A stretch of DNA of 64,000 nucleotides from a virus: positions 1 through 64,000 of the IMG/VR virus record IMGVR_UViG_3300044765_000092. One strand, given 5' to 3'. Numbering within the stretch: the stretch's first letter is position 1; every line of letters starts with the position of its first letter. This document shows positions 15,388-61,348 of this stretch, piece by piece. Position numbers and translations under genes: made by a program. The notes below the pieces were generated by a model, which made no database searches, had not been told where the DNA came from, and was given only the letters and a program-made list of their open reading frames with translations.

Positions 15388-16881
15388 ATGGCACACGCTT
15401 ATGTAGGAGGTGCGTCAAACGCTACGTCGTCGAGCGTAACCTCCGTATCAGCAACCTACGCACCGACCGCCGGTAATGGACTGTTAGTCACAGTCTATTA
15501 CCAGCAGAGCTCGAGCCGCGCATTCTCCGATATTCAGAATCAGAGTGGTACTTCGCTTAATCCTGTACTGCTGTACACCGGTGGTCTAGAGGACGCGTCG
15601 AACTACTCGGGTTTCTACGTGGCTTTCTGTCCCAATGTTCCATCAGGCATCACTGCCGTTAAGGGTGTGTTGGGATCTGCTAGCTCAGCAGGTATCGGTA
15701 TCGATGTGCGTGAATACTCGGGCCTAACGACTATTGGTAGTCAGGCAGTCGGTAACGCAGTCCAGAACACGTTCACAACAACAGCCAACGCGATCACCGC
15801 GTCTGCTACGCCAAACGCGCAGCCCGGTCTGATTTTCGCAGTTGCGACCAACGTGTCAGCCGGTGCATCACCACCCTCGGTGGGCACCGGCTTTACGTCG
15901 CGTGGCACTCCGTCTTTTGCTCTTGCATTCGGTACTGTTCAGTTCCGTATCGAAGATGGATCATATTCGTCGCTGTCATCGACTGCGGCGACCATGACCA
16001 ATGCTGGAGCAAGTGGCAACGAGATCCAAATGATCATGGGCTTGATCCCGGACGCAGCTCCGCCTGCGACTCTGTCAAGTCCAGCTCTGGCCTCGTATGC
16101 TGACGTTTCTGCCACTGGTACGGTCACAAGTGACACGGCCGGTGGTACTCTGTACGGTGCTATCACCAACACGAGTGCAACCCCGACGGCTGCCCAAATC
16201 AAGGCTGGTGGTGGCAATGTGGTGTCTCATACGAGCATCACAGCCGCGTCAGGTTCTAACAGCGTCACGATCACCGGGCTGACGGCAAGCACGACCTACT
16301 ATGGTCCGTGGTTTGTTGAGAACAACGGTTCTGACTCCAATATAGTCGGTCTTGCTACTTCGTTCACGACCAATCCACCCTCGCCAGCAATCAGCAGTTT
16401 GAGCAGTAGTTCCCCAACCGAGGGATCGACGCTGACCATAACGCTGACCAACGGTGGTGCGTCTCAGGGTACCGTTACTATTGGTGGAGTGAATCAAACG
16501 GTGACCTCATGGTCGGCAACGAGCATCCAAGTCACAGTTGTGTTGGGGTCCAACAAATATGGATCAGCGCTGAACCTGATCGTGACCTCGTCGTTGGGCT
16601 ATTCGAGCACTCCTTACAGCGTGTCTGGCGGCATACTTCCAGCCTCGGGTTGGTCATACATTAACATGACTACACCAAATGCTACAACAACTGCTCGTCT
16701 TACATCGGTGAGTGTTGACCTCGCGTCAGCTGACCAGATTCATTACGAGAACAAGAGCAATTTGGTGACGGTCGCAGCCGACGGAACAATTGCAGTTGAT
16801 TCGTCAGTCACATCCTGGCAGGCTCGTGCCTGGACCGCAACTTATGGTTGGGGTGCATACTCGACGCAGACTATGTTGTGA
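15388..16881 (+). CDS. Virion protein with Ig-like / IPT-TIG domains
   Basis: A 497-residue Ser/Thr/Gly-rich protein directly after the spike gene. Residues ~1-225 form a beta-rich domain. Residues ~228-325 look like a fibronectin-III or Ig-like domain (TSDTAGGTLYGAITN, ITGLTASTTYY). Residues ~330-410 carry an IPT/TIG-like domain (ISSLSSSSPTEGSTLTITL, then VTIGG). Such domains decorate phage tails, capsids and fibres and bind carbohydrate weakly. A role as an accessory appendage in adsorption is inferred. Stop is close to a terminator at 16937. Confidence 0.7.
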   Translation: MAHAYVGGASNATSSSVTSVSATYAPTAGNGLLVTVYYQQSSSRAFSDIQNQSGTSLNPVLLYTGGLEDASNYSGFYVAFCPNVPSGITAVKGVLGSASSAGIGIDVREYSGLTTIGSQAVGNAVQNTFTTTANAITASATPNAQPGLIFAVATNVSAGASPPSVGTGFTSRGTPSFALAFGTVQFRIEDGSYSSLSSTAATMTNAGASGNEIQMIMGLIPDAAPPATLSSPALASYADVSATGTVTSDTAGGTLYGAITNTSATPTAAQIKAGGGNVVSHTSITAASGSNSVTITGLTASTTYYGPWFVENNGSDSNIVGLATSFTTNPPSPAISSLSSSSPTEGSTLTITLTNGGASQGTVTIGGVNQTVTSWSATSIQVTVVLGSNKYGSALNLIVTSSLGYSSTPYSVSGGILPASGWSYINMTTPNATTTARLTSVSVDLASADQIHYENKSNLVTVAADGTIAVDSSVTSWQARAWTATYGWGAYSTQTML

Positions 16882-16936
16882 TCAACGCGCGCGCGACTAA
16901 CGTCAGCATCCATAGAGTGTTACAGCTCTGTTACAG

Positions 16937-16973
16937 AATAGGCGGTGACCGAAAGGCATCGCCTATTTTTATT
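16937..16973 (+). terminator. Rho-independent terminator
   Basis: AATAGGCG (16937-16944) pairs with CGCCTATT (16960-16967), extended by GTG/CAT around a loop, and is followed by TTTTTATTT. It ends the appendage operon before the glycosyltransferase gene. A direct repeat TGTTACAG lies just upstream at 16918-16925 and 16929-16936. Confidence 0.8.
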
Positions 16974-17009
16974 TGGGCGCACAACCTCATAGCTGCTCAA
17001 GGACAAACA

Positions 17010-18176
17010 ATGGAACATCCAATTCTGCGCGTACTCTTTATTCTCAAACGACGTCATCCAGGACCTTATGGCCACTGGAACTACAGCCCTGATGGGCAAT
17101 CACTGCCAAGCGGTCTTAGCGTGTCAGCCAATCAGGTGGCAATCGCACTGAGCGAGCTCGGCATCGATAACAAGACGGTCCAAGTGGTTGACAACAACTG
17201 CATCGACCGCGAAGTCACGGCCTACAAGCCCACCCACGTCGTGATCGAGGCGTATTGGGTGGTTCCAGAGAAATTTGATGTGCTGAAGCGGCTGCATCCA
17301 GGTGTGACCTGGATCGTACGCAATCACTCGAAGACTGAGTTCTTGGCCAACGAAGGTATGGCCTACGGGTGGACAATCGAGTATCTGAAGCGCGATCTGT
17401 ATGTAGCGTGTAATTCCGGGACCGCCACTTGCGTCTTCAAAGAACTTGCGCAATCGATGGATCTCCCTCAATCGAGGGTGATCGAGCTATCCAACTACTA
17501 CGATCTAACTGGCGCTGAAGATCCACATGTCAGCCAGTTCAGTGTCTGGTGGCATAAGCTGCACCGGGAACTTGGTACCGAGCGGTCCAGTTTTCCGGCC
17601 GACCTCGAGACTGATGGCCTCCACATTGGTTGCTTTGGCGCCATACGTCCGTTGAAGAACCACATGAACCAGGCGCTGGCTGCCATTCGTGTAGCCGATC
17701 GTCTTGGAGTGGAACTCGCGTTCCACATCAACGGCAATCGTGTGGAGGGTAATGCCGACCCCTTTGTCAAGAACCTGCGCCAGTTGTTTGCCAAACACCC
17801 ACGCCATCACCTGATCGAACACGAATGGGCAGATCACGACAAGTTCCTACAGATCGTTCGGAACATGCATCTTGTGTCGCAGGTATCAGTGTCCGAGACC
17901 TTCAATATTGTGGCCGCTGACGCTGTATATTGTGGAGTCCCAGTCGTTGGTTCGGCCGAGATTCCGTGGTTAGACGATGAGTACGTGGCAGAACCTAACT
18001 GTGTCGCTAACATTGCTGACACAATGGAGTATGTGCTCCAGTATTCGGGCGAGCATGTTATTAACGGCACGATCAAGAGCCGCAAGCCCTACATTCATGC
18101 AGATCAACTCCAGGGTCTGCGCGAGTATGTGGGTGCAGCCAAACGTGAGTGGGCACGCTTTCTACTCGGTCGCTAA
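17010..18176 (+). CDS. GT-B glycosyltransferase (GT4-like)
   Basis: A 388-residue predicted glycosyltransferase. The N-terminal half (ILRVLFILKRRHPGPYGHW) resembles the acceptor domain of GT-B enzymes. The C-terminal half contains IGCFGAIRPLKNHMNQALAA, a typical start of the nucleotide-sugar domain, and SVSETFNIVAADAVYCGVPV with ETF-x7-GVPVV, matching the GT4 donor-binding E-x7-E region in which the first Glu is kept. The ATG at 17010 has an AAGGA 6 bases upstream; an in-frame start at 16848 lies inside the previous gene. It stands between two terminators, so it may be expressed on its own. It points across the terminator at the base-modification cassette. Substrate unknown. Confidence 0.75.
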   Translation: MEHPILRVLFILKRRHPGPYGHWNYSPDGQSLPSGLSVSANQVAIALSELGIDNKTVQVVDNNCIDREVTAYKPTHVVIEAYWVVPEKFDVLKRLHPGVTWIVRNHSKTEFLANEGMAYGWTIEYLKRDLYVACNSGTATCVFKELAQSMDLPQSRVIELSNYYDLTGAEDPHVSQFSVWWHKLHRELGTERSSFPADLETDGLHIGCFGAIRPLKNHMNQALAAIRVADRLGVELAFHINGNRVEGNADPFVKNLRQLFAKHPRHHLIEHEWADHDKFLQIVRNMHLVSQVSVSETFNIVAADAVYCGVPVVGSAEIPWLDDEYVAEPNCVANIADTMEYVLQYSGEHVINGTIKSRKPYIHADQLQGLREYVGAAKREWARFLLGR

Positions 18177-18215: not shown

Positions 18216-19031
18216 CTATCGCTTGTACGAGCCCGGTACTGTTTCACCGGAGTAGGTTGTTGTTCCTCCGTCGCCGCCTGTGCCGCCGCCGCCACTGCCG
18301 GTCGACTGATCTGGTGTATATCCAGTCGGGCCGACCATCACCGTTACAGACGGAGAGGCTACCATCGGCGGTTCAGCATAAGGGGCTGGATTCACCCACG
18401 TAACGCCGCGGCCTTGCGTAAACTCACCGTATTCCAAGTGTCGAGCAATTGGATCTTTTCTGGTATTTGTCGTCTGCTCGTTGGTTTGATAGACAATCGT
18501 GCCGCCGACATGGTCTGGCGCGATGACGTTCGGCACCACTTGTTGCTGATACGTGTACATTGGAGTAAACGGGGTCGCCGGTGTCTCTTGGTGTTTGTGT
18601 TTGGCGATCAGGTCGTTTAGGGTCTCACCGTCACGAGGCGTTGGACCTTTCGGTGCATCCCTCTCGGCCCTGGCCTTGCGGATAGCTTCCCGCTTCTCCA
18701 ACACTAGGCCGAGATACGCGATGTAATCCTTGATGGTCTCGTCCAGCGATTCGGTTGACATCGGATCGTCCGATACGTCCAGGATATTCCATCCCAGCTT
18801 TTTCAACTGAGCATCCAGGCGGTCACCTTTGCGGATGATCGTGAAGTAGGCGCCGGTCCCACCACGCTTACACCAGCTGGATCCGTACTCAGCGTCTTTC
18901 TTCTTGCAGGTGGTCACGCACTCGGTCATGAGCTGTGCCATACGCTCGAAGTTCGTATACGGCACATACGACTGCATTTCAGTCGCGTTCTCCGTGTCTG
19001 TACGCTTATCCATCGTTCGCCGATCCGTCAC
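18216..19031 (-). CDS. Nucleotide-modification-associated domain 1 (Nmad1/DUF1599) protein
   Basis: A 271-residue protein. Residues ~25-120 match DUF1599, now called nucleotide modification associated domain 1: KKKDAEYGSSWCKRGG, then IIRKGDRLDAQL and DETIKDYIAYLGLV. This domain is predicted to act with modified-base pathways in phages; its activity is not established. The remaining ~150 residues are a Pro/Thr/Gly-rich, probably disordered tail ending in GGGG and GGDGG runs. It begins with GTG overlapping the TGA of the thymidylate-synthase-like gene, after an AAGGAAGG ribosome-binding site, so the two are translationally coupled. This supports a joint role in nucleotide metabolism. Confidence 0.75.
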   Translation of the reverse strand: MTDRRTMDKRTDTENATEMQSYVPYTNFERMAQLMTECVTTCKKKDAEYGSSWCKRGGTGAYFTIIRKGDRLDAQLKKLGWNILDVSDDPMSTESLDETIKDYIAYLGLVLEKREAIRKARAERDAPKGPTPRDGETLNDLIAKHKHQETPATPFTPMYTYQQQVVPNVIAPDHVGGTIVYQTNEQTTNTRKDPIARHLEYGEFTQGRGVTWVNPAPYAEPPMVASPSVTVMVGPTGYTPDQSTGSGGGGTGGDGGTTTYSGETVPGSYKR

Positions 19032-20149
19032 TGCTTCTGTCCTTCCTTAGCTTTACGAGCTGCCACCCGACGCAGCAGCCACTGATAGCCATTTACCGTC
19101 CAGTCGGTTGCCGGCCCGAAGTTCGTGTCCAGGAAGTGCGCAGCTTCCTCTGGTCCCTTGTTCTTGTACAGCCAATAGGCCGAGCCCATAGGCCAGACCA
19201 CCTTTTGATAGAACTCAGTACCGAAGTCTTCGGCTTTCAGCCGGTCAAACGATTTGTACGCTTCAAGCAGCAGGATTGTGTCGGCATCGAATGCACCACG
19301 TTGATCTGCTCCGTCAAACAGATACGGTGTAGGATCGTAGTTGAACTTCGGCAAGCCTCTGGCCCATTCATCAGCATATTCCAGAGTAAACGCGTCGCTT
19401 ACGCGGTCCGTCCCATGGGCATAGTCCGACCGAATGAATCGCTTGGTGATGTCAAACTCCAGATACAGATGAAGATTCGAACTCACTTGATTGTAGACTC
19501 CTACGTCTACAGTCTTCCCATTGATCTGGCCGAGAGCACACGCCACGTACTCTTGTAGCATCGAGAAGTGCACGACATTGGCGCCCAACGCACCAAAGAT
19601 GCTATCGTTGCTACGGTTGAACACCGTCATGTCCAGTTCGTAGCTATGCCTCAGCTCTGTCAAGTAGAACGTGCATGCCAGATTGCAAGGCACGTCATAG
19701 GTACCGTTCTGAACAGACTTGGGATCGTGAAGACCATCCCACATTTGGAGCACCACGCGACGGCTTGCAGGGTCACGTGCAAGCTCAGGAATCACCCACT
19801 GGCTCAACTGATCGTGATTGAAATGATTGCGCCACCGATAGCCATACGCTCCGTTGAGTACCTTGCCATCGTCGCTGTAGTTCTTCATGTTGGACGCGTA
19901 GTAGGCAGGCAACTCTACGTCGTTGCGGCCACCGAGCATCCACAGGCTTTCCATCAGGTGGAAGAACGGATTGGCATCCCGTACCGGGCTCACAACCACC
20001 CGATTGCGTGGATTAGTCCACCGCAAAATCACTGGATTGCGGAACCGGAGTACCGGTCCGTTGCGGCTCTCGGATTTGAGGCCGCGGACCAAAATCTCCG
20101 GCAGTAGCAGTTGCTGCATCTTGTCGATGCTATGTGATTCGTATTCCAT
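19028..20149 (-). CDS. Thymidylate synthase superfamily enzyme, probable dUMP hydroxymethylase
   Basis: A 373-residue protein of the thymidylate synthase / deoxynucleotide hydroxymethylase superfamily. The active-site Cys is in DVPCNLACTFYL (Cys155; Asn replaces the His of the usual PCH). The phosphate-binding Arg pair is at SRRVV (~130-132), and the folate/substrate region ESLWMLGGRND lies near residue 70. The NRSND...GANVVHFSMLQEY block (178-201) keeps the Asn (191) that selects uracil over cytosine, in place of the Asp found in dCMP hydroxymethylases. Members in phages make dTMP or 5-hydroxymethyl-dUMP. The neighbouring hmdU-DNA-kinase-like genes favour 5-hmdUMP, but sequence alone does not exclude a plain thymidylate synthase. 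Between UGM (10 bases upstream) and Nmad1 (overlap). Confidence 0.82.
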   Translation of the reverse strand: MEYESHSIDKMQQLLLPEILVRGLKSESRNGPVLRFRNPVILRWTNPRNRVVVSPVRDANPFFHLMESLWMLGGRNDVELPAYYASNMKNYSDDGKVLNGAYGYRWRNHFNHDQLSQWVIPELARDPASRRVVLQMWDGLHDPKSVQNGTYDVPCNLACTFYLTELRHSYELDMTVFNRSNDSIFGALGANVVHFSMLQEYVACALGQINGKTVDVGVYNQVSSNLHLYLEFDITKRFIRSDYAHGTDRVSDAFTLEYADEWARGLPKFNYDPTPYLFDGADQRGAFDADTILLLEAYKSFDRLKAEDFGTEFYQKVVWPMGSAYWLYKNKGPEEAAHFLDTNFGPATDWTVNGYQWLLRRVAARKAKEGQKQ

Positions 20150-20158
20150 GGCTTGTGA

Positions 20159-21391
20159 TTACGACTGGAGTTTATGGAATCTGGTCGCTTCGTGCAACCC
20201 TAGGGCGATTGCCTGATGCATGTCCAAGTATTGGTACGAACCTAGGCGCCCGGAGAACCTGATGTGGGGTACTTCCTGGAGTGCAAGCGTTGTGTACTCT
20301 GAGTACAGTCGTTTGTTATCCAGGTTTGGGACAGGGTACATCGGCACGTCCTTTGGACCGGCCTCTCTTGGCAGTTCTGTTACCACGGCTGTGTGGTATT
20401 TGTTGATCGGTAGCTGACTCCTTGGCAGTGGTTGGAGTTTGGACATCAGCGTGTATCGAGTGGCTCCTGTAAACTCCTTTACATTGCTCAGTATGTTGTA
20501 GGTGGTAGCCACCGCAGTACCTGCCGTCGCTTCACCCCAGATGGTTCGTACCTCGGTCCTGAAGTCGATCGTGCGATAGCCAAGATGCCCAAGTTTGTAA
20601 CCAAAGAACTGATCGATCGGACCTGTGTAGAACGTGGGCAAGCCCCTGGTTTTGCTATCTAGGTCTTCGTACTTGGTTGACGTGCGTACCTCAAGGCGAT
20701 CACCGCATCGATCAATGATTCGCTGCACAAAATCCGTGTATCCCTTGGCCGGAAGAGCCTGATACTTGTCAGTGAAGTAGCGGTCGTCGAACGAATTTCG
20801 GAACGGCACCCGGTTGATCACCTCCGGCATTCCGGTTTCGATCTTGTCGAACGGTAGGCCCCACATCAGCTCAGAATACCTGCGACACACGACTTCCCTG
20901 AGCACTTCAGCCAAAGTCTCGAACGCCACGCATTGAGGATAGTCCAATTGCTTGGCTCTATTGGCTAGGTCACCGAGTCTGATCACGCTATCGGCGTTAA
21001 ACTCAGAATCTAGTGCATGAATCACCGAGTAGTAGAGCTCAGCGTTGAGCAGGGACGTTAGACTCCCTCGGTTCAGCGGCAAGCTAAACGCTTTACCGCT
21101 GTACTCGCCCATCACCCGGTGGTAGTACGGAACCCATTCACAGAATTCGTTGACAAACTTCCACACCATATCACTGTTCGTGTGGAAGATGTGCGGCCCG
21201 TACTTTTGCATCCACACGGATACCGACGTCGCTCCGTCTGTATCGAAATGCTCGACCCCGTCATACACGTTGCCTCCAACGTGATCGCGCTGATCGATCA
21301 TCAACACATTATACCCGTGTTGAATAGCTCTGTGGGCAAAGCACACACCGGTCAAACCGGCCCCCACAACGAGAATTGTCTTATCTACCAA
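20159..21391 (-). CDS. glf: UDP-galactopyranose mutase
   Basis: FAD-dependent enzyme that converts UDP-galactopyranose to UDP-galactofuranose in the cytosol. The 410-residue protein has the N-terminal dinucleotide motif GAGLTG (residues 10-15), the FAD signature DQRDHVGGNVYD, and the family hallmark YGPHIFHT. Later blocks include RRYSELMWGLPFDK, RVPFRNSFDDRYFTDKYQ, GYTDFVQRI, YTGPIDQFF and a C-terminal GRLGSYQYLDMHQA, all typical of Glf. The TTG start at 21391 follows GGAGACC with a 6-base gap; an ATG at 21433 would overlap the previous gene by over 50 bases. UGM is rare in phages; here it lies inside the base-modification cluster. UDP-Galf would be a donor for the nearby glycosyltransferases. 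Confidence 0.92.
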   Translation of the reverse strand: MVDKTILVVGAGLTGVCFAHRAIQHGYNVLMIDQRDHVGGNVYDGVEHFDTDGATSVSVWMQKYGPHIFHTNSDMVWKFVNEFCEWVPYYHRVMGEYSGKAFSLPLNRGSLTSLLNAELYYSVIHALDSEFNADSVIRLGDLANRAKQLDYPQCVAFETLAEVLREVVCRRYSELMWGLPFDKIETGMPEVINRVPFRNSFDDRYFTDKYQALPAKGYTDFVQRIIDRCGDRLEVRTSTKYEDLDSKTRGLPTFYTGPIDQFFGYKLGHLGYRTIDFRTEVRTIWGEATAGTAVATTYNILSNVKEFTGATRYTLMSKLQPLPRSQLPINKYHTAVVTELPREAGPKDVPMYPVPNLDNKRLYSEYTTLALQEVPHIRFSGRLGSYQYLDMHQAIALGLHEATRFHKLQS

Positions 21392-22004
21392 AGTGGTCTC
21401 CAAAGTATAGGTAGTCCTTGGCATAAAAGGCATTGATCAAGCCTTTCTCCTCGGTGGTCAGATCCTCAGCCCGAAGGGATCCGGCCTTACTACTCTCATT
21501 GTCGTGACCCATTACGATGGCCATCCCCATGTGATTGGCCACCATAGTGACCAGGGCATTAGGATTAGAGGTCACAAAGTCAGCAACCATCTTTCCGTTG
21601 GGCAACACTAGGAAGTTCTTCTGCGGACAGAAGTGGACAAACCGCATGTCTGCCACCGTCAGTGCTGGATACTCAGTAATCAGTTTGAGCAAATCACCAA
21701 CACTCATGTCGTGGATTCTGCGGCTCCTCGTGTAGTTGTAGGCGCTGATAAAGCGGTCCATCGGATTACGCACCACAGCAAACACTAGATGCGTGCGAAT
21801 CCGAGTCTCCAACTCAGGAAACGCATAGAGTTCGTGGGCCTGAATGTGAGCCTTGTCGACCGTCCGTTGGAGCTGCGGCACGAACTTAGGCCCCCAATAC
21901 TGATTGTTCGAGTCGTCGTGCTTCATCAGTGCATTTCGCACGCTTGTTCCGGCAGCCTTGGGTATGTGGATAAACACCCATGACCCTCGATCACTGTACA
22001 TCAT
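21381..22004 (-). CDS. Sulfotransferase (Sulfotransfer_2 type)
   Basis: A 207-residue predicted PAPS-dependent sulfotransferase. The 5'-phosphosulfate-binding loop is FIHIPKAAGTS (residues 11-21) and the 3'-phosphate-binding motif is VVRNPMDRFISAY (77-89). These are the two signatures of the carbohydrate sulfotransferase family. A downstream CPQKNFL segment also fits. No transmembrane anchor is present, unlike Golgi relatives, as expected for a bacterial cytosolic enzyme. It overlaps the UGM start by 11 bases and follows the kinase gene by 4 bases, so it is part of the same operon. The acceptor could be a sugar, a surface glycan or the modified base; sequence does not decide. Confidence 0.85.
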   Translation of the reverse strand: MMYSDRGSWVFIHIPKAAGTSVRNALMKHDDSNNQYWGPKFVPQLQRTVDKAHIQAHELYAFPELETRIRTHLVFAVVRNPMDRFISAYNYTRSRRIHDMSVGDLLKLITEYPALTVADMRFVHFCPQKNFLVLPNGKMVADFVTSNPNALVTMVANHMGMAIVMGHDNESSKAGSLRAEDLTTEEKGLINAFYAKDYLYFGDHFGR

Positions 22005-22008
22005 GATG

Positions 22009-22605
22009 TCAGAGTACCTCGCGTGTGACTGGTGTGTCAGGCCCTAGATCAAGCAGCCGCTTAGACAAAGTCTCTGCAATGGTCTGAAACTGCTCTTCGT
22101 TCTTGTAGTTCTTGACTTCAATGTCGACGTGCGACGCTGGCGCCGTGTACATCTTGGACGTGTCGGCAAATCGAGACTCTTTGGGCGTAATCGTGTTCAT
22201 CCACACCTTGTAGATGATGACCGCGCGTGTCGAGCCAAAGAACGAACCGGCACCAAGACGGAACGCATTGTCCGTCTGTTCAGTGGGGTTGACAAAGTCA
22301 ACGAGTGCAAACCTATTGAGCCCCTCGCCGTTCGTTGGGTGACCAGCTAGATTGAGGTAACCGTACGGAGGACTGACAGCCAAACTTGAGATGGCGCCCA
22401 TGCGGTACGCCTGGACAATCCGGTCTCTGACTGAGAACCCCAGGTCCTTAGAAATCCATCCACGGATCATGTCAGCATTGATACGCACTGAGTAGGGCAG
22501 TATGTCCGCTAGCTTGTCAGCCAGCGTGGTCTTTCCCGACCCCGGCAGCCCTTGGAACAGGACGATCACCCGCTGATCAGGCACCTTGATCTTGATGGCG
22601 CTCAT
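22009..22605 (-). CDS. P-loop kinase, candidate 5-hydroxymethyluracil DNA kinase
   Basis: A 198-residue P-loop kinase. Walker A is GLPGSGKTT (19-27); downstream are VDFVNPT (102-108) and SRFADTSKMYTAP (144-155). This VDFV-x-PT and DT-N/S-x-M-F/Y arrangement is shared by APS-kinase-like enzymes and by the 5-hmdU DNA kinases that phosphorylate hydroxymethyluracil in phage DNA in thymidine hypermodification pathways. The start overlaps the stop of the HMUDK-helical-domain gene (ATGA), and the two proteins together would correspond to the kinase and helical parts of that system. An APS kinase feeding the adjacent sulfotransferase with PAPS is the main alternative, since APS kinases share the fold. 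Confidence 0.72.
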   Translation of the reverse strand: MSAIKIKVPDQRVIVLFQGLPGSGKTTLADKLADILPYSVRINADMIRGWISKDLGFSVRDRIVQAYRMGAISSLAVSPPYGYLNLAGHPTNGEGLNRFALVDFVNPTEQTDNAFRLGAGSFFGSTRAVIIYKVWMNTITPKESRFADTSKMYTAPASHVDIEVKNYKNEEQFQTIAETLSKRLLDLGPDTPVTREVL

Positions 22606-23615
22606 TTTGCCCCGCTGTACTTGTTCTTCATGTTAGCACCGCCGTCCTTTTGGCTACGCACCATCTTTGACAGCTCGCACATACAGTTGCTGTAGTTCGA
22701 CATCGAGATCTCTTCGAATCCGGTTCGCATATCGTTGGTCCACCATTTATTTGGTACCTTGGCCTTGACTGCTTCATTTACCAGTTGGCGGAACCTCAGC
22801 ATTTCCTCGTGAATCTGCTTTGGTGATAGCTTGCCGTTCATGCGGCCCGTGCTCATCCAGTTCGTGCCCTTGCGCGTACCTGGACCTGGACTAGTGAACG
22901 TGTTGTAGTCCTTGGCCCGCTTTAGCCACTGATTCATATACGACAGGTCGACCACAACTTGATAGGCTAGGAACGGACCCCATCCGTGGTTCTTGGTCAG
23001 TTCGGCGACCGCGCCACCCATCGTGCCTCCGTTCCTAGCCCTGCACGCTGCTTGAAACGGTTGTCGATTGTGCCATAGCTTATCGAAGTTGAAGAACGTG
23101 ATGGCATACGGCTTTTTGAACTCAGTGGGCGGCAGTTCACCCTTTGGAGTGACCGAGTTGACGATATACGCCCCGGTCACCACCTTTTCTTTCCGCTGCG
23201 CGCGGCCCCTAAGCACACCGAAGAACTTCTTGGCGTCCCACTTCTTGGTGGGCCACGCACCCTCGTCCATCAGCTCCTGAAGCGTATCCGGCCAGTTGAT
23301 CACGCGGGTAATTGCCAGCATGAACGGCAGGTCCGGATGGTCTTGATATCTGTCCATCACATTGGACCGTACCCACTTGCTGACCCGATCTAGTTCGCGG
23401 TACACGTTGGTGAACGAGAAATTCTGCAGGATTGGGTCGTCGGTCCAAGGCTTGGGCTGCTTGAGCACTTCCTTCTTCAAGTAGATCTTATGGCGCTCGA
23501 CCACAAATTTAGCGCACGCGTCGACGCGTTCAGCCTCGTCCGGAATGAAGTAAGGGAACATGCCCTGGTTTTGGAACAGTTCCCCTTGATTCTTGTCGCT
23601 CTTTGTCTTTGTCAC
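22602..23615 (-). CDS. HMUDK-helical / aGPT-pyrophosphorylase-like protein (candidate thymidine hypermodification enzyme)
   Basis: A 337-residue protein resembling the helical domain of 5-hmdU DNA kinases and the alpha-glutamyl/putrescinyl-thymine pyrophosphorylases, since reinterpreted in part as amino acid:DNA transferases. The signature FSFTNVYRELDRVSKWV (66-82) is followed by a VINWPDTLQEL block and GAYIVN; the central region has a Gly-rich RNGGTMGGAVAEL and a conserved-looking HGWGPFLAYQVVVDL. In known phages such enzymes act on 5-hydroxymethyl- or pyrophosphorylmethyl-uracil in DNA and attach an amine or amino acid. The GTG start has a CGGAG 6 bases upstream. It overlaps the P-loop kinase gene by 4 bases. 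Which of the two activities it has cannot be told by eye. Confidence 0.7.
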   Translation of the reverse strand: MTKTKSDKNQGELFQNQGMFPYFIPDEAERVDACAKFVVERHKIYLKKEVLKQPKPWTDDPILQNFSFTNVYRELDRVSKWVRSNVMDRYQDHPDLPFMLAITRVINWPDTLQELMDEGAWPTKKWDAKKFFGVLRGRAQRKEKVVTGAYIVNSVTPKGELPPTEFKKPYAITFFNFDKLWHNRQPFQAACRARNGGTMGGAVAELTKNHGWGPFLAYQVVVDLSYMNQWLKRAKDYNTFTSPGPGTRKGTNWMSTGRMNGKLSPKQIHEEMLRFRQLVNEAVKAKVPNKWWTNDMRTGFEEISMSNYSNCMCELSKMVRSQKDGGANMKNKYSGAK

Positions 23616-23627
23616 CTGAACTCCGTA

Positions 23628-24038
23628 TCAGAATTGGACCCCGTGGTTACACCGTTCAATGCCCAATATGGACTTGATCTTTTCTTGCTGTTCCCGGGCC
23701 CCAACTGTTCGACCTTTGTCGAAGAATTGCTTGCACACAGCCGCAATGTCAACGATGTGATCGGAGTTGAGGTCTATCTGGCTTAGGCGCATGACCGAGC
23801 GCTTTTCGTTCCATGCACCTCGACCAGCCGTCACATGCATCAAGTGTAGCTCCAACTTACCTAGCTGCTTTACCACATCGTTGAGCTCGACTCGAAACTC
23901 CTGATGGCCGACGGTCACCAACTTGTTGTTGGTCTCGTTGATCCAGCGCAACAAGTATTCTTCTGGCGTTGCTGGTTCCAGTTTTGGAAGCGGGCACGCG
24001 CCTTTGAATGGGTCATAGCCTTCACTCGTCGTCGCCAT
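23628..24038 (-). CDS. Hypothetical protein
   Basis: A 136-residue helical, charged protein that I do not recognise. It begins with ATG after an AAGGGG ribosome-binding site and overlaps the end of the acidic protein gene. Residues 20-60 look like an amphipathic helical hairpin (EEYLLRWINETNNKL, ELNDVVKQLGKLELHL). It immediately precedes the HMUDK-helical-domain gene in the same operon, 12 bases apart, so it may be an accessory to the modification pathway. Confidence 0.6.
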   Translation of the reverse strand: MATTSEGYDPFKGACPLPKLEPATPEEYLLRWINETNNKLVTVGHQEFRVELNDVVKQLGKLELHLMHVTAGRGAWNEKRSVMRLSQIDLNSDHIVDIAAVCKQFFDKGRTVGAREQQEKIKSILGIERCNHGVQF

Positions 24039-24240
24039 CATCGTCCCCTTCGTCTTCCGTGTAATCTGACTCCTCAAAGTCAGAGTCAGTCATTACTGAG
24101 AATACCGACACGTCTACAGCTGAAGACACGGCCACCACACTAGCAGCTGCCGACTCGTTAGCAATAGCTTCTTCTACGGCCTTGCGTGCAATTTCACGTT
24201 CCGTGATGCTGTCACACCTGACAATTACGATGGTCTTCAT
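24022..24240 (-). CDS. Small acidic protein
   Basis: A 72-residue protein with a short N-terminal beta-strand/helix unit (KTIVIVRCDSITEREIARKA) and a strongly acidic C-terminus (ESDYTEDEGDDDGDDE). Its ATG overlaps the TAA of the glycosyltransferase gene (TAATG) after an AGGAG site. Highly acidic tails in phage proteins can mimic DNA or bind basic partners; nothing here proves that. Confidence 0.55.
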   Translation of the reverse strand: MKTIVIVRCDSITEREIARKAVEEAIANESAAASVVAVSSAVDVSVFSVMTDSDFEESDYTEDEGDDDGDDE

Positions 24241-25202
24241 TACGGCTCCTGTTTCGCGCGTTTCCAGTTGCGCTTGAACGTTGCGATGATCTCGTCCCGT
24301 GGCATCTCGTCCGGGTACTGAAAGATCTTAGGTGGTTTGATCAACCCGTGCTCTTCACAGACTGACCTCACGTAGTCTTTGCTGGCTTGAACGTGCTGTG
24401 GCTTTACACCCTTGACCGCACGCTGGAACCACTTCTGAATCGTCATTCCACCGCCGCGGTTGCCGTTCTCTTTTGCACCAGTCACGATGCCTGGGAACAT
24501 GCGCGCCATCTTGAGCGCGCTGTCTAGCTTCACAAAATCATCACGATAGGTGGCTGTCCCTGTGACCGACAATTCCTTGACCGTTGAATGGTTGTACACC
24601 AGACCGTAGTAACAGACAGACGACCGTGTTGCCTGTAGCACTTGCAAAGGTATTGCGAGGTCAGTGAACATAAATGTTTTGTTGAACCACAGTTGGTCAC
24701 GCTTAACGAGCTTCTGTATCGTGCCCCTGCAAAAACCCGTGACAACAAAACCTACCGTGTTGTGCTTGATCAACGACTTGCGCGCGTGTTGCTCGGCCAT
24801 GAACTTCGATGCCAGGCTGACGCACTTGTGATCGTCGTACAGTGTAGGAAGCACGTCCAGAAATTCGTGGGCAAATGCTTTAGGGTCAGCCTTTGCGGTG
24901 TTGTATCGCCCGGCCCTTCGATCCCACACATACATGCCAACATCGTCGTCGAGAACAAAGTAGTTGGACTCCATGTTCTGTGCCAACCACTGCCGCTTCT
25001 TCGGCACACAATCTATGTGGGTGGGCCACACCTCGATCGACTTTACGGTCGAGGCCCACTCACGCTTGTACTCTTTGTACTGCGATGGCACTACCCACAA
25101 CTCCACCTGCTGCTGAACCTTTGGAGGCAGGTTCTGCAACGTGATTTGTAGCCGTGGTCTGCCGTACGACATGATTATGAATCGACAGCCGCTACTGGTC
25201 AT
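24240..25202 (-). CDS. GT-A-like glycosyltransferase with DDD motif (possibly TET-associated type)
   Basis: A 320-residue protein of apparent GT-A fold. It opens with CRFIIMSYGRPRLQITLQNL, the form taken by nucleotide-sugar-binding strands, and has VLDDDVGMYVWD near residue 100, which supplies the DxD metal/donor site. The overall shape is close to the TET/JBP-associated glycosyltransferases (TAGT) predicted to modify hydroxymethylated bases in phages. That link is a pattern judgement. The ATG at 25202 overlaps the end of the upstream glycosyltransferase by 11 bases; a TTG at 25253 is possible. Its place directly upstream of the base-modification genes makes modified DNA a plausible acceptor. 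Confidence 0.6.
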   Translation of the reverse strand: MTSSGCRFIIMSYGRPRLQITLQNLPPKVQQQVELWVVPSQYKEYKREWASTVKSIEVWPTHIDCVPKKRQWLAQNMESNYFVLDDDVGMYVWDRRAGRYNTAKADPKAFAHEFLDVLPTLYDDHKCVSLASKFMAEQHARKSLIKHNTVGFVVTGFCRGTIQKLVKRDQLWFNKTFMFTDLAIPLQVLQATRSSVCYYGLVYNHSTVKELSVTGTATYRDDFVKLDSALKMARMFPGIVTGAKENGNRGGGMTIQKWFQRAVKGVKPQHVQASKDYVRSVCEEHGLIKPPKIFQYPDEMPRDEIIATFKRNWKRAKQEP

Positions 25203-26514
25203 CCTTGCTTCGCCTTTTCTGTCGGTCTTCTTGTTTCTTGAGTTGACGATCAATCTTTGTCAAGAAACGTTCGGCGTTGGCTTGGATCTTCTTGTTGAGC
25301 TTCCCCGTCTCGAGCTTCGGATACACACCGGCAGGCTTACCCTGAGCCAACTTGATGTAGTCAAGGCTGCTCTTACGATAGTCGAAGAACTTGAGCAGAA
25401 TCTTCCGGCCACGATCGATGATGGCTTGCGCATCGTCCTCGTGCAGATGCGATACGTGGTCGATCAGCTCGGCCAGTTCACGTGGCTTGCAGTCGTGCGC
25501 GATCTCGAAGTGAGTCTTCCCTGCCTTGAACATCTGCAGTTGGAACCCTTCTTCGATCATGTTCTCACGCACACATATAGGAACGCAACCGTTGTTATAG
25601 CCTTCGATGATGCTGCGGTTGAAGTGACAGCCCAAGGACATGAACTTCTTTGACCAGGACGTGTCGACCATCACACGTGACCTGCGATACAACTTCTGCA
25701 GATCAGCACTCGTCAGCAGACCCCTGTAGTCCATGCCCGCCTTCTCTGCCTTGGCCCAGATGCCTTTATACTTGTCCTTGCACTTGTCAGGACTCGTCAT
25801 GTAGCGACGTTCGATTCCGTCACCCGCCATGATCATGTGCGTGTTCTTGATATACGGCACGGCTCGCACTGTCATGTCCATGTGCTTCCATGCTTTCCAC
25901 ACGTGAGCGCTCACAGCCTGAGGCTTGCGTTCTGACCACGACCTCATCTTTGTCCAGTCGTACACCGGATGCGGAGCACCGACAAACGCCCTAGGGGCTG
26001 GGAACCACGACAAGGCAGCGTAGCCTGCTTGATTCGTGCAACTGATTCCCTTGACCTTGTCAGCCACGTGGATCAGATGAGGATACAGATCACGGAAGTT
26101 GGCATCGTGCGCACTAATGATCTGTGGAACATCGACGTCGTACAGGCGTTTCCACCATCCGTGCGTGTCGACAGCTCCAGGCTTTGCCGGGTTTGGTCCC
26201 GGGATCTCGTGAATGATCAGATCGTACTTGGACGCTCGCTTTTGCCACTTGAGGATGCGTCGCTTCGACCCATAGCTTACGATCGGTATGCCAAAGTATC
26301 CGGCAAGAGTGTGACATTGTGCGCCTGGGAACACGGAATCGTAAGCGCCATCCCTCTTGGTCTTGCCTCGCATCTTCGGATCGAAGTCAGCATTGACCAG
26401 ATAGCAGATGTCTACTTCGTGGCCAGCTTCTGTTAGCCCACGGGCCTTGAATTCGAGGTCCGCGACTATACCTCCCCAGTCTTGGATGTCGAATACGGTG
26501 AACAGAATTTTCAT
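25192..26514 (-). CDS. GT-B glycosyltransferase
   Basis: A 440-residue predicted glycosyltransferase of the GT-B fold. N-terminal MKILFTVFDIQDWGGI and GHEVDICYLV fit the first Rossmann domain. The C-terminal domain shows HMIMAGDGIERRY, then DYRGLLTSADLQKLYRRSRVMVDTSW and RSIIEGYNNGCVPIC, the last matching the donor-binding E-x7 region (IIEGYNNGCVP). The final ~60 residues are highly basic (KKIQANAERFL, KKQEDRQKRRSKDD), which could contact nucleic acid or be a disordered tail. It heads a sub-operon with a TGTAAATG element 28 nt upstream. Acceptor unknown: host glycan or phage DNA. Confidence 0.75.
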   Translation of the reverse strand: MKILFTVFDIQDWGGIVADLEFKARGLTEAGHEVDICYLVNADFDPKMRGKTKRDGAYDSVFPGAQCHTLAGYFGIPIVSYGSKRRILKWQKRASKYDLIIHEIPGPNPAKPGAVDTHGWWKRLYDVDVPQIISAHDANFRDLYPHLIHVADKVKGISCTNQAGYAALSWFPAPRAFVGAPHPVYDWTKMRSWSERKPQAVSAHVWKAWKHMDMTVRAVPYIKNTHMIMAGDGIERRYMTSPDKCKDKYKGIWAKAEKAGMDYRGLLTSADLQKLYRRSRVMVDTSWSKKFMSLGCHFNRSIIEGYNNGCVPICVRENMIEEGFQLQMFKAGKTHFEIAHDCKPRELAELIDHVSHLHEDDAQAIIDRGRKILLKFFDYRKSSLDYIKLAQGKPAGVYPKLETGKLNKKIQANAERFLTKIDRQLKKQEDRQKRRSKDDQ

Positions 26515-54582: not shown

Positions 54583-56478
54583 ATGATGCAGATCGAACAC
54601 GCCGCAGTCAACTTCAAGAACAAGTCGCTTGATCAACTCAAGCAGTTGTACATCAAGTCGAAAGACCTCTACTACAATTCCCCAAACGGCAAGACGCTGA
54701 TGTCGGACAAGGACTTCGATACGCTCGAAGACTTGATTCGTGAACAGGATCCGCGGTGGAAGGGGTTTGGTGCAGGCATCAAGGTCAAGAAGTTCAAGGC
54801 ACCACTGCCAGTGCCGATCTTTTCCCTTGATAAGATCAAGACCCAGGAAGGCCTGACTCGTTGGTTCGACAGTCTGGAGTCCGATTCCCTGGTCCTGTCT
54901 GATAAGCTGGACGGGGCTGCACTCGAGATCGTGTACACCAAGGGCGTGCCGTCCAAGGCATTTACTCGCGGCAATGGCAAGATCGGTGGCGACGTTTCGT
55001 ACATCCTGCCGTATCTGCGCATTCCCCAAAAGGTGGGGACCACGAGCTTCATCATCCGGTGTGAGGGACTGTTCAGCAAGCAAGCGTTCCAGCGACACGC
55101 TCATGAATTTGATGCTGCACGCAACGCTGCATCAGGTGTGCTGAATCGTACGGACATCCACAAGGCGGTACGCGATCTGACAGTCGCGGTGATCGAAGTG
55201 TTGCAGCCACGGATCCAACCGTCCAAGGGTCTCAAGTGGGCGGCAACCAAGGGGTTCTTTGTCGTTCCGTACAAGGTGGTGCCGAAGTCCAAGCTCGACG
55301 TTGACGTGTTGTCCAAGTTGCTGGCCCGGCGTAAGGCCAACAGCAAGTTTGAGATGGATGGTCTGGTCCTGGTCGAAGACCGAGTTCATCCAGTACCGAC
55401 TGGCAACCCAGATTGGGGAATCGCCTTCAAGGAGGATCTGGCTACAGCCGACGCACCGGTCACTACTGTCGAAGAAGTGGTGTGGGCCATCAGTCCTAAA
55501 GGCAAGATCGTTCCGCGTGTTCGTGTATCGCCCGTCAAGTTCGGCGGAGCGACTGTCAAGTACGCGGCGGCATTCAACGCCCAATTCGTGGTCAAGCACA
55601 AGCTAGGTCCCGGGGCCAAGATCGCGTTGCAGCGCAGTGGCGACATTATCCCCGACATCCTCCAGGTGGTCAAGTCAGCGAACAAGCCTCAGTTGCCGCC
55701 ATCGGACATAGGCGAGTACAGCTGGGACAAGACCAAGGTCAACTTTGTACTTGTCAATCCGACGCAGAACGATACGTTCCGCCGTAAGGTAATGGCACGA
55801 TTCTTCGCCCACATCGGAGTCGACTTTGTCAAGGGCGGAGCCATCTCCAAGCTATACGACGCCGGGTTTACGAACATTCGCACCATTGTCCGTGCTACAC
55901 CCAAGGACTTTCTGAAAATACCTGGGGTGAAGGAAACGACAGCTAACAAGTGGTACGAGGCAATCCACAAGGTACTTGATCAGGGAGTAGAGTTGCCACT
56001 GTTGATGGACGCGAGCGGTGTGTTTCCGCTCGGTATGGGTGAAACCCGATTCCGTGCAGTGGCCGCTCAATACGACTTGATGAAGCTGATGCAGTTGGAC
56101 AAAGTGGGCATGCTGCGTAAGCTCCTTCAAGTGCCTGGCTTCCAAGCCAAGAACGCTGAAGCGTTTGTGATAGGGGCACCAAAGTTCCTCAAGTGGCTGT
56201 CAATCACGCAGATCAAGATTGGAAAGCCAAAGACCGAGAAGACCAAACAGTCCAGCTCCAAACTATCGGGTCAAGCCGTAACATGGACTGGGTATCGGGA
56301 TGCGACCCAAGAACAAACTGTCAAAGAAAATGGTGGTCAGATAGTGCCATTTGGCGGCAAGACGACAGTGCTGCTCTACAAGGCGAGCGGCAAATCAAGC
56401 ACCAAGATTCAAAAGGCACAGGACAAAGGACTCGTGGTCCTGACCTGGGATCAGTTTGTCAAGAGGTTCAAGCTATGA
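54583..56478 (+). CDS. ligA: NAD-dependent DNA ligase (LigA-like), zinc finger absent
   Basis: Seals nicks using NAD+. The 631-residue protein carries the adenylation motif SDKLDGAALEIVY (Lys108 nucleophile), SLDKIKT upstream as in bacterial LigA, FEMDGLVLVED, WGIAFKED, and an OB-fold region. A helix-hairpin-helix region (LKIPGVKETTANKWYEAI) and a C-terminal BRCT-like domain (VTWTGYRDATQEQTV to VLTWDQFV) follow. The four-Cys zinc finger normally between OB and HhH is missing: that region has no Cys. The very N-terminal Ia domain is present in shortened form. Expected to join Okazaki fragments with the FEN nuclease. Confidence 0.88.
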   Translation: MMQIEHAAVNFKNKSLDQLKQLYIKSKDLYYNSPNGKTLMSDKDFDTLEDLIREQDPRWKGFGAGIKVKKFKAPLPVPIFSLDKIKTQEGLTRWFDSLESDSLVLSDKLDGAALEIVYTKGVPSKAFTRGNGKIGGDVSYILPYLRIPQKVGTTSFIIRCEGLFSKQAFQRHAHEFDAARNAASGVLNRTDIHKAVRDLTVAVIEVLQPRIQPSKGLKWAATKGFFVVPYKVVPKSKLDVDVLSKLLARRKANSKFEMDGLVLVEDRVHPVPTGNPDWGIAFKEDLATADAPVTTVEEVVWAISPKGKIVPRVRVSPVKFGGATVKYAAAFNAQFVVKHKLGPGAKIALQRSGDIIPDILQVVKSANKPQLPPSDIGEYSWDKTKVNFVLVNPTQNDTFRRKVMARFFAHIGVDFVKGGAISKLYDAGFTNIRTIVRATPKDFLKIPGVKETTANKWYEAIHKVLDQGVELPLLMDASGVFPLGMGETRFRAVAAQYDLMKLMQLDKVGMLRKLLQVPGFQAKNAEAFVIGAPKFLKWLSITQIKIGKPKTEKTKQSSSKLSGQAVTWTGYRDATQEQTVKENGGQIVPFGGKTTVLLYKASGKSSTKIQKAQDKGLVVLTWDQFVKRFKL

Positions 56479-59650: not shown

Positions 59651-61348
59651 ATGAAGACACTCACGACCGCTGCACCGAATCAGAAGCAGTTTGACGACCT
59701 CATTCGCCTCATGTACGCGGCCGTGATCTCTGTGTCAGATGGTCAGGCGGCAACAGGCGAGCTCAAGGCACAAACCATCGCGTGGTCAGCCAATGCCGCA
59801 AAGTTCGAGAAGCAGTACGATCTACCAGAACTCACCAATTCGTTGCGCGAAGTGGTAGCCGATCCGGCAGCTCTCGACGATGTGATCGACACGTTTCGGT
59901 CTTCCCGTCAGATTCTAAAGCAAATGCAGCTGGACCGTGAGTTCAGCCACGAGGATATTGACATCCTCAAGGCATCGTTTGCCTATCTGCTTACCAAGAG
60001 CGATCGTGCATTGCAGGCCCTGGTGAAGATGGCACCACGGCTACACACACCTCTGTTGTCTGCGCAGCTCAAGTTCGATGCGGGCTCCCAAAACACATAC
60101 AACAAGCCACTGCAGAAGATCGTATGGGCTGTGGCAAAGCGTAAGAACTCCAACAAGCTGACTAAGGACGAAGCAGAAGCGCTCAGGGAAAAGAACCCGG
60201 AGGTATACAAGGAGTACCTCCGTCTGCGTCGTGGAGTCAACGACGTGTGGAAGACCGAGCTGCGTAACTTTGTCTTCGACTCGGGCAAACCCATAGTCGA
60301 CTATCAGGCGGCGCTCAAGTTCCTGCAGAGCCAGGGTCTCGAACACACGCTGCCACCTCAGTATCGCGGCAAGATCGACGCTAACGGTGCTCTCTACACG
60401 ACGACGGGCAAACCCTTGGCCGGCGGTCTACCGAGTCCTGGGTTTACCATCAAAATGAACCCGGATTACGATCCGAAGACCGATGATGGCGCTGTGTTCA
60501 TGACCATCAACGACGAAACGGATGCAGTCAGCAAATATGTCTATACGCAAGACTTCGTCAAGCGTGCGACCAAGAGCAAACTTGAGAAGGTCAAGAAGCT
60601 AGACACAATGATCGACAACGTCCGCAAGAAGTGGATGATGTATGTCAAGCAGGGTGGCAAGTCGCCTCAGGCGGTGTGTTCGACGGTCCTTGAACTGCTC
60701 TACTTGTTCGGTGCTCGAATCGGTGATAAGGGTAACACAGCCAAGGGTAAGACCACGTATGGGCTATCGACCATTCTGGTCAAGCATGTCAAGGTCTCGG
60801 GCGCCAACGTCGTCATCGGTTACAATGGCAAAGACGGTGTGCGTCAGGTTCATAAGCTGGATGGTAGCACACCAGAAGGCAAGATCCTGGTGAGGAACAT
60901 CAAGATCCTATTGCACGGCAAACAGCCAAACGATCAGGTGTTCACTTTTGACTACGGCGATCGTACTGACATCCCAGCCAATCCGAAGATGATCAATGAT
61001 TGGTTCCACAAGCTAGGTATCCCACAGGGAGTGACGGTTCACAAACTGCGCCACGTTCAGGGTAGCCGTTTGTTCCGCGAGCTGATGGACCAGAATGCTA
61101 AGACCTTGTTTGAGCGTAAGGTCCCGCTGACCCAGACGCAGGGCAACCAAGCATTTGTCAAGTTGGCTGAGAAAGTTGGTCAGCTGCTAGGTCACATAAA
61201 GACCGCAGGTGGTCAAGCTAAAGTCACAGGGATGACCGCTCTTAAAAGCTACATTGACCCAGAGGCCCAGCTCGAGTTCTGGTCGCGGGCTAATCTACGA
61301 CCGCCCAAGTACCTCGAAAAGATGGGCAAGAACCAGGGACTGCTGTGA
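59651..61348 (+). CDS. DNA topoisomerase IB
   Basis: A 565-residue type IB (poxvirus/eukaryote-like) topoisomerase that relaxes supercoils through a 3'-phosphotyrosine intermediate. The catalytic domain shows ELLYLFGARIGDKGNT (first Arg), VVIGYNGKDGVRQVHK (Lys loop), VTVHKLRHVQGSRLF (Arg/His) and MTALKSYIDPEAQ with the nucleophilic Tyr. The N-terminal ~200 residues are helical and unlike the core family. Many large phages use type II enzymes; IB is less usual. It is overlapped by the small gene that follows (TGATG). Confidence 0.88.
   Translation: MKTLTTAAPNQKQFDDLIRLMYAAVISVSDGQAATGELKAQTIAWSANAAKFEKQYDLPELTNSLREVVADPAALDDVIDTFRSSRQILKQMQLDREFSHEDIDILKASFAYLLTKSDRALQALVKMAPRLHTPLLSAQLKFDAGSQNTYNKPLQKIVWAVAKRKNSNKLTKDEAEALREKNPEVYKEYLRLRRGVNDVWKTELRNFVFDSGKPIVDYQAALKFLQSQGLEHTLPPQYRGKIDANGALYTTTGKPLAGGLPSPGFTIKMNPDYDPKTDDGAVFMTINDETDAVSKYVYTQDFVKRATKSKLEKVKKLDTMIDNVRKKWMMYVKQGGKSPQAVCSTVLELLYLFGARIGDKGNTAKGKTTYGLSTILVKHVKVSGANVVIGYNGKDGVRQVHKLDGSTPEGKILVRNIKILLHGKQPNDQVFTFDYGDRTDIPANPKMINDWFHKLGIPQGVTVHKLRHVQGSRLFRELMDQNAKTLFERKVPLTQTQGNQAFVKLAEKVGQLLGHIKTAGGQAKVTGMTALKSYIDPEAQLEFWSRANLRPPKYLEKMGKNQGLL

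Follow-up and report, generated by a model that had tools for sequence, protein, structure and literature searches.

This report concerns a minus-strand operon at positions 18216-26514 of a 64,000-nucleotide stretch of viral DNA, called the window below, which comprises bases 1-64000 of the 238,018-bp IMG/VR virus record IMGVR_UViG_3300044765_000092 (G000), a jumbo phage. The operon is contiguous, and its genes from 18216 to 24077 are tightly packed, with intergenic gaps of -53 to +12 nt. It holds a cassette that is a glycosylation-based variant of thymidine modification with a sulfotransferase arm, and as far as the sequences allow a judgement the balance just tips towards a phage DNA in which thymine bears a sugar and probably a sulfate. 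Open reading frames (ORFs) were called throughout the record, including the 174 kb beyond the window.

Gene content of the operon

The operon contains the following ORFs:

18216..19031, minus strand: conserved protein of 271 aa with the core 'YGSSWCKRGG..RKxDRL' (weak match to PHROG 1485, 1e-4; no Pfam match)
19028..20149, minus strand: dUMP 5-hydroxymethylase of the thymidylate synthase (TS) superfamily, 373 aa (PF00303, YuA gp17)
20159..21433, minus strand: UDP-galactopyranose mutase, GLF (PF03275, TIGR00031)
21381..22004, minus strand: sulfotransferase (Sulfotransfer_2) dependent on 3'-phosphoadenosine-5'-phosphosulfate, PAPS (PF03567, PHROG 3347)
22009..22605, minus strand: P-loop kinase resembling adenosine-5'-phosphosulfate (APS) kinase (PF01583; closest PDB matches are APS kinases)
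22602..23615, minus strand: all-helical HMUDK_hel protein, here HEL (PF18723)
23628..24077, minus strand: ORF of 149 aa within the operon (no Pfam match)
24022..24240, minus strand: acidic ORF of 72 aa within the operon, from the ORF list only, which may not be a gene
24240..25253, minus strand: TET-associated DNA glycosyltransferase, TAGT (PF20691, PHROG 842)
25192..26514, minus strand: GT-B glycosyltransferase, here GT 25192 (weak Glyco_trans_1_2 match, 2e-4; Foldseek)

An earlier note on this DNA had built a thymidine-hypermodification operon from four of these ORFs (18216, 19028, 22009 and 22602), all of which are present where it placed them, tightly packed on the minus strand. It had missed four further enzyme genes of the operon: GLF (20159), the sulfotransferase (21381), TAGT (24240) and GT 25192. 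Its reading is partly supported: right in kind, wrong in chemistry.

The hydroxymethylase and the HEL protein

The 19028 ORF belongs to the TS superfamily (PF00303, 2.9e-15; PHROG 5131, 1.2e-95) and is closest to YuA gp17, which is annotated as a deoxyuridylate hydroxymethyltransferase (2.3e-66). Among its relatives of solved structure CMP 5-hydroxymethylases come top (1.3e-18), far ahead of thymidylate synthases, and each of the five hydroxymethylase homologues in the alignment has the catalytic Cys155 as well as the uracil-type Asn191; the earlier assignment of the ORF to a TS-superfamily enzyme with a uracil-type Asn is thereby upheld. In one relative the hydroxymethylase gene is interrupted by an intein (L026:10973-13033; Intein_splicing PF14890, HNH_3).

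The earlier note had proposed that the 337-aa product of 22602 be compared with HMUDK_hel, and it matches that family well above threshold (PF18723, 4.5e-44, 151 bits against a cut-off of 25), as it does YuA gp14 (2.6e-44). An AlphaFold model of HEL, made from an alignment from which rows from annotated phage records had been left out, reaches a pLDDT of 90. Its fold matches in the PDB are weak (E 0.08 or worse) but agree in theme, among them 8-oxoguanine DNA glycosylases, PUGT (the phage 5-PmdU glycinyltransferase) and a DUF2419 enzyme of queuine salvage; a base-flipping, DNA-glycosylase-like fold is plausible on the model. The HEL of Ralstonia phage RSL1 listed in BFVD is 50% identical to it (TM 0.88). 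Homology of the hydroxymethylase and HEL, together with their conserved linkage, gives good support to the claim that thymine is partly replaced by a base derived from 5-hydroxymethyldeoxyuridine (5-hmdU), and the phage DNA very probably contains such a base.

The company that HEL keeps was surveyed at 80 loci recovered by an alignment-based scan of IMG/VR; single-protein scans with either HEL or the kinase as query had found no relatives there, and alignment-based scans were required. HEL has TAGT as a neighbour at 48 of these loci, a kinase of the PF18748 type (5-hmdU DNA kinase) at 24, and both at none, an exclusion that is highly significant by Fisher's exact test (p=6e-14 for all loci; 5e-10 with near-copies removed). 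A minimum of five changes of partner are needed on the HEL tree, with fewer forced by its starred branches. Because HEL is accompanied by TAGT or by a 5-hmdU kinase but never by both, its distribution suggests a general hmdU-DNA module usable by either enzyme, and PF18723 alone is thus no indicator of phosphorylation.

Two further proteins lie close to HEL in other phages. Homologues of the 18216 protein adjoin HEL and the hydroxymethylase in many of them; the label Nmad1/DUF1599 formerly given to this protein falls away, since none of 13 family members (the window protein and 12 homologues) matches in Pfam at E<=1. A 170-aa protein is encoded just beyond the window (G000 64789-65301; L002:789-1301, minus strand), and in many phages with HEL and TAGT a homologue of it (E as low as 1e-30) lies immediately upstream of HEL; its one match, to a pyrimidine-dimer glycosylase, is weak, and it is a candidate accessory factor.

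Glycosyltransferases, mutase and sulfotransferase

TAGT is recognised by PF20691 (7.8e-10, 39.5 bits against a cut-off of 27.5), with the DDD motif in the alignment, and by PHROG 842, a beta-glucosyl-HMC-alpha-glucosyltransferase family (3.3e-18). In T6-like phages, members of the TAGT family glycosylate DNA (PMC13390438). For GT 25192, Foldseek returned GT-B enzymes throughout, with a likeness to GT4 and with chains of T4 DNA alpha-glucosyltransferase, including AGT-DNA complexes, among the best. Searches of INPHARED phages by tblastn with TAGT and GT 25192 gave no matches. GLF is well above the Pfam cut-off (PF03275, 2e-41, 142.4 bits against 26.3) and matches TIGR00031 (6.3e-76, 255.8 bits), under the equivalog cut-off of 303.75. 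From the presence of these enzymes beside HEL we consider it probable that the hmdU-derived base is glycosylated.

The sulfotransferase (PF03567, 2.2e-12, 48.1 bits against a cut-off of 22; PHROG 3347) has both PAPS-binding motifs, the 5'-phosphosulfate-binding loop 'HIPKAAGTS' and the 3'-phosphate-binding motif 'VRNPMDRFISAY' (VRNPMDR), and the core of these motifs is kept in its homologues. A PDB sequence search with profiles of the sulfotransferase and the glycosyltransferase gave nothing useful, and the sulfotransferase of RSL1, a phage absent from INPHARED under its accession, had no match among the phages there.

The APS-kinase-like enzyme

The 22009 kinase matches PF01583 (APS_kinase; 1.2e-7, 32.3 bits against a gathering score of 21.1), as does its homologue in L023 (58.2 bits), and its Arg48, Phe57 and Arg62 align with conserved residues of the APS kinase CysC. 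The earlier note had this enzyme phosphorylate 5-hmdU in DNA. Its identity as the PF18748-type 5-hmdU DNA kinase was rejected: APS kinase is the best match instead, and PF18748, a model that detects YuA gp13 (7.8e-18) and Bhz59 (5.9e-17), matches neither the kinase nor anything else in the whole of G000 or in eight related records. To judge from its homology, the kinase may be a supplier of PAPS.

APS-kinase-like P-loop domains form a wide phage family (L013:11995-12726, L014:9989-10729, L103-L182), and in most members the domain is joined to an NMNAT-like nucleotidyltransferase (GRxQPxHxGH); one member, from an annotated siphophage, is the direct neighbour of a NADAR gene, with a MazG gene not far off. 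Some of the cassette kinases described below (L023:3189-3908, L025:2842-3546, L185:4591-5286, L190:8186-8875 and L192:3564-4442) have at their C-terminus an additional domain of about 80 aa (YIRYNT.SDG...WRVI), absent from the window copy.

The cassette in other phages

The five closest HEL relatives (L023-L027, on contigs of 37-249 kb) all have the hydroxymethylase, HEL, TAGT, an APS-kinase-like kinase and a sulfotransferase. A separate IMG/VR scan with the sulfotransferase added the same set in four lineages (L185, L190, L192, and L188 with its near-copy L189), bringing the total to ten distinct contigs, the window included. In the nine relatives the five genes are spaced within about 15 kb and differ in order, and this reshuffling throughout the cassettes argues that their co-retention is selected.

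The cassettes come in two flavours. One has GLF and GT 25192 (the window, L023, L026, L188 and L190). In the second, represented by L024, L025, L027, L185 and L192, two or three TAGTs occur together with an APH-type kinase that is mostly accompanied by a nucleotidyltransferase, and L192 has an NAD-dependent epimerase of the GalE type besides. We take L185 to be the cultured Ralstonia phage RSL1 from three things: its record is of the isolate type, its 231,255 bp equal the published genome length (PMC8504454; PMC5348500), and BFVD has the matching RSL1 HEL protein noted above. Like the window, RSL1 combines the hydroxymethylase, a HEL half identical in sequence, TAGT (in three copies), the sulfotransferase and the kinase; it differs in having no GT 25192 and, with GLF not found at the locus, an APH-type kinase instead.

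Proposed pathway and alternatives

The following pathway would account for the cassette. In its strongest step the 19028 enzyme would convert dUMP to 5-hydroxymethyl-dUMP, which would then give 5-hmdU in DNA. HEL, to judge from its associations, would recognise and perhaps flip 5-hmdU in DNA, and TAGT, with GT 25192 or followed by it, would add a sugar rather than a phosphate to the 5-hydroxymethyl group. There would be two successive glycosyl transfers: GLF would supply UDP-galactofuranose, so that one sugar is probably galactofuranose (Galf), and the presence of two glycosyltransferases suggests a disaccharide. Lastly, the sulfotransferase would use PAPS to sulfate the glycan, and the APS-kinase-like enzyme would raise the supply of PAPS or make a related donor. 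The modification would presumably act as a shield against restriction and other DNA-targeting defences. Attachment of the sulfate to DNA is read from gene content, and whether the hmdU-derived base is sulfated appears evenly poised. We give an even chance to the full proposal: a sulfated glycosyl-5-hydroxymethyluracil, whose glycan is probably a sulfated galactofuranosyl disaccharide, would stand in for thymine and be made by the HEL-TAGT module together with the sulfotransferase and the APS-kinase-like enzyme, with a sister cassette in RSL1.

Several observations weigh against this proposal. The window sulfotransferase is short (207 aa against 259-297), and the model of GT 25192 is of low confidence (pLDDT 59), with no supporting PDB sequence match. 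PAPS synthesis is not established, because the kinase falls far under the cut-off of the NCBIfam apsK equivalog (33 bits against 138.7), does not have the canonical lid DPKGLYKKARAGE, with NAD where CysC has DGD, and belongs to a wider phage family that consists mostly of NMNAT-like fusions with no sulfotransferase nearby. The sulfotransferase-bearing contigs are partly related phages and hence not fully independent. Finally, one phage (L184/G004, 230 kb), which shares synteny with L190, has lost part of the cassette (L184:8698-12030): GLF, a homologue of the 18216 protein and a sulfotransferase that is intact are retained, while the hydroxymethylase, HEL, TAGT, the glycosyltransferase and the kinase are missing from the same genomic position. 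GLF and the sulfotransferase can thus persist without the base-modifying core, where they may have another role or be remnants, and this retention lowers confidence in the sulfate-on-DNA step.

The same phage speaks for the best-surviving alternative, which is unlikely but deserves consideration: the DNA would carry glycosylated 5-hmdU only, made by the hydroxymethylase, HEL, TAGT and GT 25192, and the sulfotransferase, perhaps with GLF and the kinase, would decorate another glycan, for example a surface polymer of the host or the glycan of a virion protein. In agreement with such a division of labour, the commonest arrangement among the HEL loci (41 of 80) is HEL, TAGT and hydroxymethylase where neither a kinase nor a sulfotransferase was found in the vicinity; for two TAGTs from such loci the PF20691 identity was directly confirmed. 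However, the sulfotransferase and kinase sit inside the base-modification cluster in all ten contigs despite the reshuffled gene order, and the best sulfotransferase matches in IMG/VR come almost all from within the cassette.

An improbable second alternative is an exchange of kinases, with the APS-kinase-like enzyme in the place of the PF18748 kinase; together with HEL it would phosphorylate 5-hmdU in DNA to begin a hypermodification that the other enzymes complete. The kinase and HEL ORFs overlap by 4 nt, and L184/G004 has lost its kinase along with HEL, the hydroxymethylase and TAGT and not with the sulfotransferase. Against this, HEL and TAGT occur elsewhere without a nearby kinase, HEL and the kinase are neighbours in some relatives only, and in its motifs the kinase follows the APS-type nucleotide kinases.

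Very improbable is an amine or amino-acid hypermodification of hmdU of the M6, ViI and phiW-14 type, with the missing enzymes encoded elsewhere in the genome. It is true that the hydroxymethylase and HEL are common to the M6-like phage YuA and that phiW-14 has a HEL-like protein, by fold match. The earlier note had likewise placed amine transfer after phosphorylation of 5-hmdU, and had correctly seen no radical-SAM enzyme in the window; none (PF04055) is found across the 238 kb of G000 either, which also yields no PF18748 kinase, no homologues of YuA gp10, gp11 or gp12 (phmmer against 319 ORFs) and no homologue of a pyridoxal phosphate (PLP) enzyme or amino-acid:DNA transferase.

The weakest alternative, a surface-glycan operon (acting on lipopolysaccharide or a receptor-binding protein) with an incidental thymidylate synthase, could point to GLF, which is typical of surface polysaccharides, and to a glycosyltransferase gene 40 nt from the operon end, but it is scarcely credible given that HEL and a hydroxymethylase-type TS are DNA-modification proteins kept in all ten cassettes. 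That neighbouring gene (16848-18176, plus strand, convergent with the cassette) encodes a GT4-type enzyme, follows long repetitive ORFs of fibre-like look on the same strand, and possibly has a separate role in virion or surface glycosylation.

Elsewhere in the window, a type IB (eukaryote-like) topoisomerase (59651-61348, plus strand; PF01028, 5.9e-19) is encoded near an NAD-dependent DNA ligase (54583-56478). No tRNA or Rfam matches were found in the window.

Significance and comparison with known systems

To our knowledge, a sulfate ester has not been described on any DNA base, and searches of open-licence PMC papers found no such base. If the proposed sulfated glycosyl-5-hydroxymethyluracil exists, it would bring extra negative charge into the major groove, a novel DNA chemistry with a bearing on restriction, CRISPR and glycosylase defences. 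Phages labelled as having a '5-hmdU DNA kinase' from PF18723 may glycosylate thymine instead. With RSL1 in culture the prediction is directly testable.

The cassette resembles those of M6/YuA and ViI (5-NedU, 5-NeOmdU) in bringing a dUMP hydroxymethylase and HMUDK_hel proteins together in one cluster, but the window is without the PF18748 kinase and the AADT, PLP and radical-SAM enzymes and has glycosyltransferases and a sulfotransferase. With the glucosylation of 5-hydroxymethylcytosine in T4 and T6 (AGT, BGT, TAGT) it shares a TAGT enzyme, and the low-confidence model of its GT-B enzyme has T4 AGT among the closest folds; here, however, the base is dU and not dC (Asn191), HEL is present, the donor is probably a Galf donor and a sulfotransferase is added. 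Base J of kinetoplastids, beta-glucosyl-hmU, is likewise hmU in DNA that carries a sugar, yet it arises from oxidation of T within DNA by JBP, whereas in the window a dUMP hydroxymethylase would act before polymerisation. Bacillus phage SP-15, with its glucosyl- and phosphoglucuronolactone-dihydroxypentyluracil, also has a thymine-derived base with sugars and extra negative charge (PMC5977210); there the base is dihydroxypentyluracil and the charge a phosphodiester, while the charge proposed here is a sulfate on an hmdU glycan.

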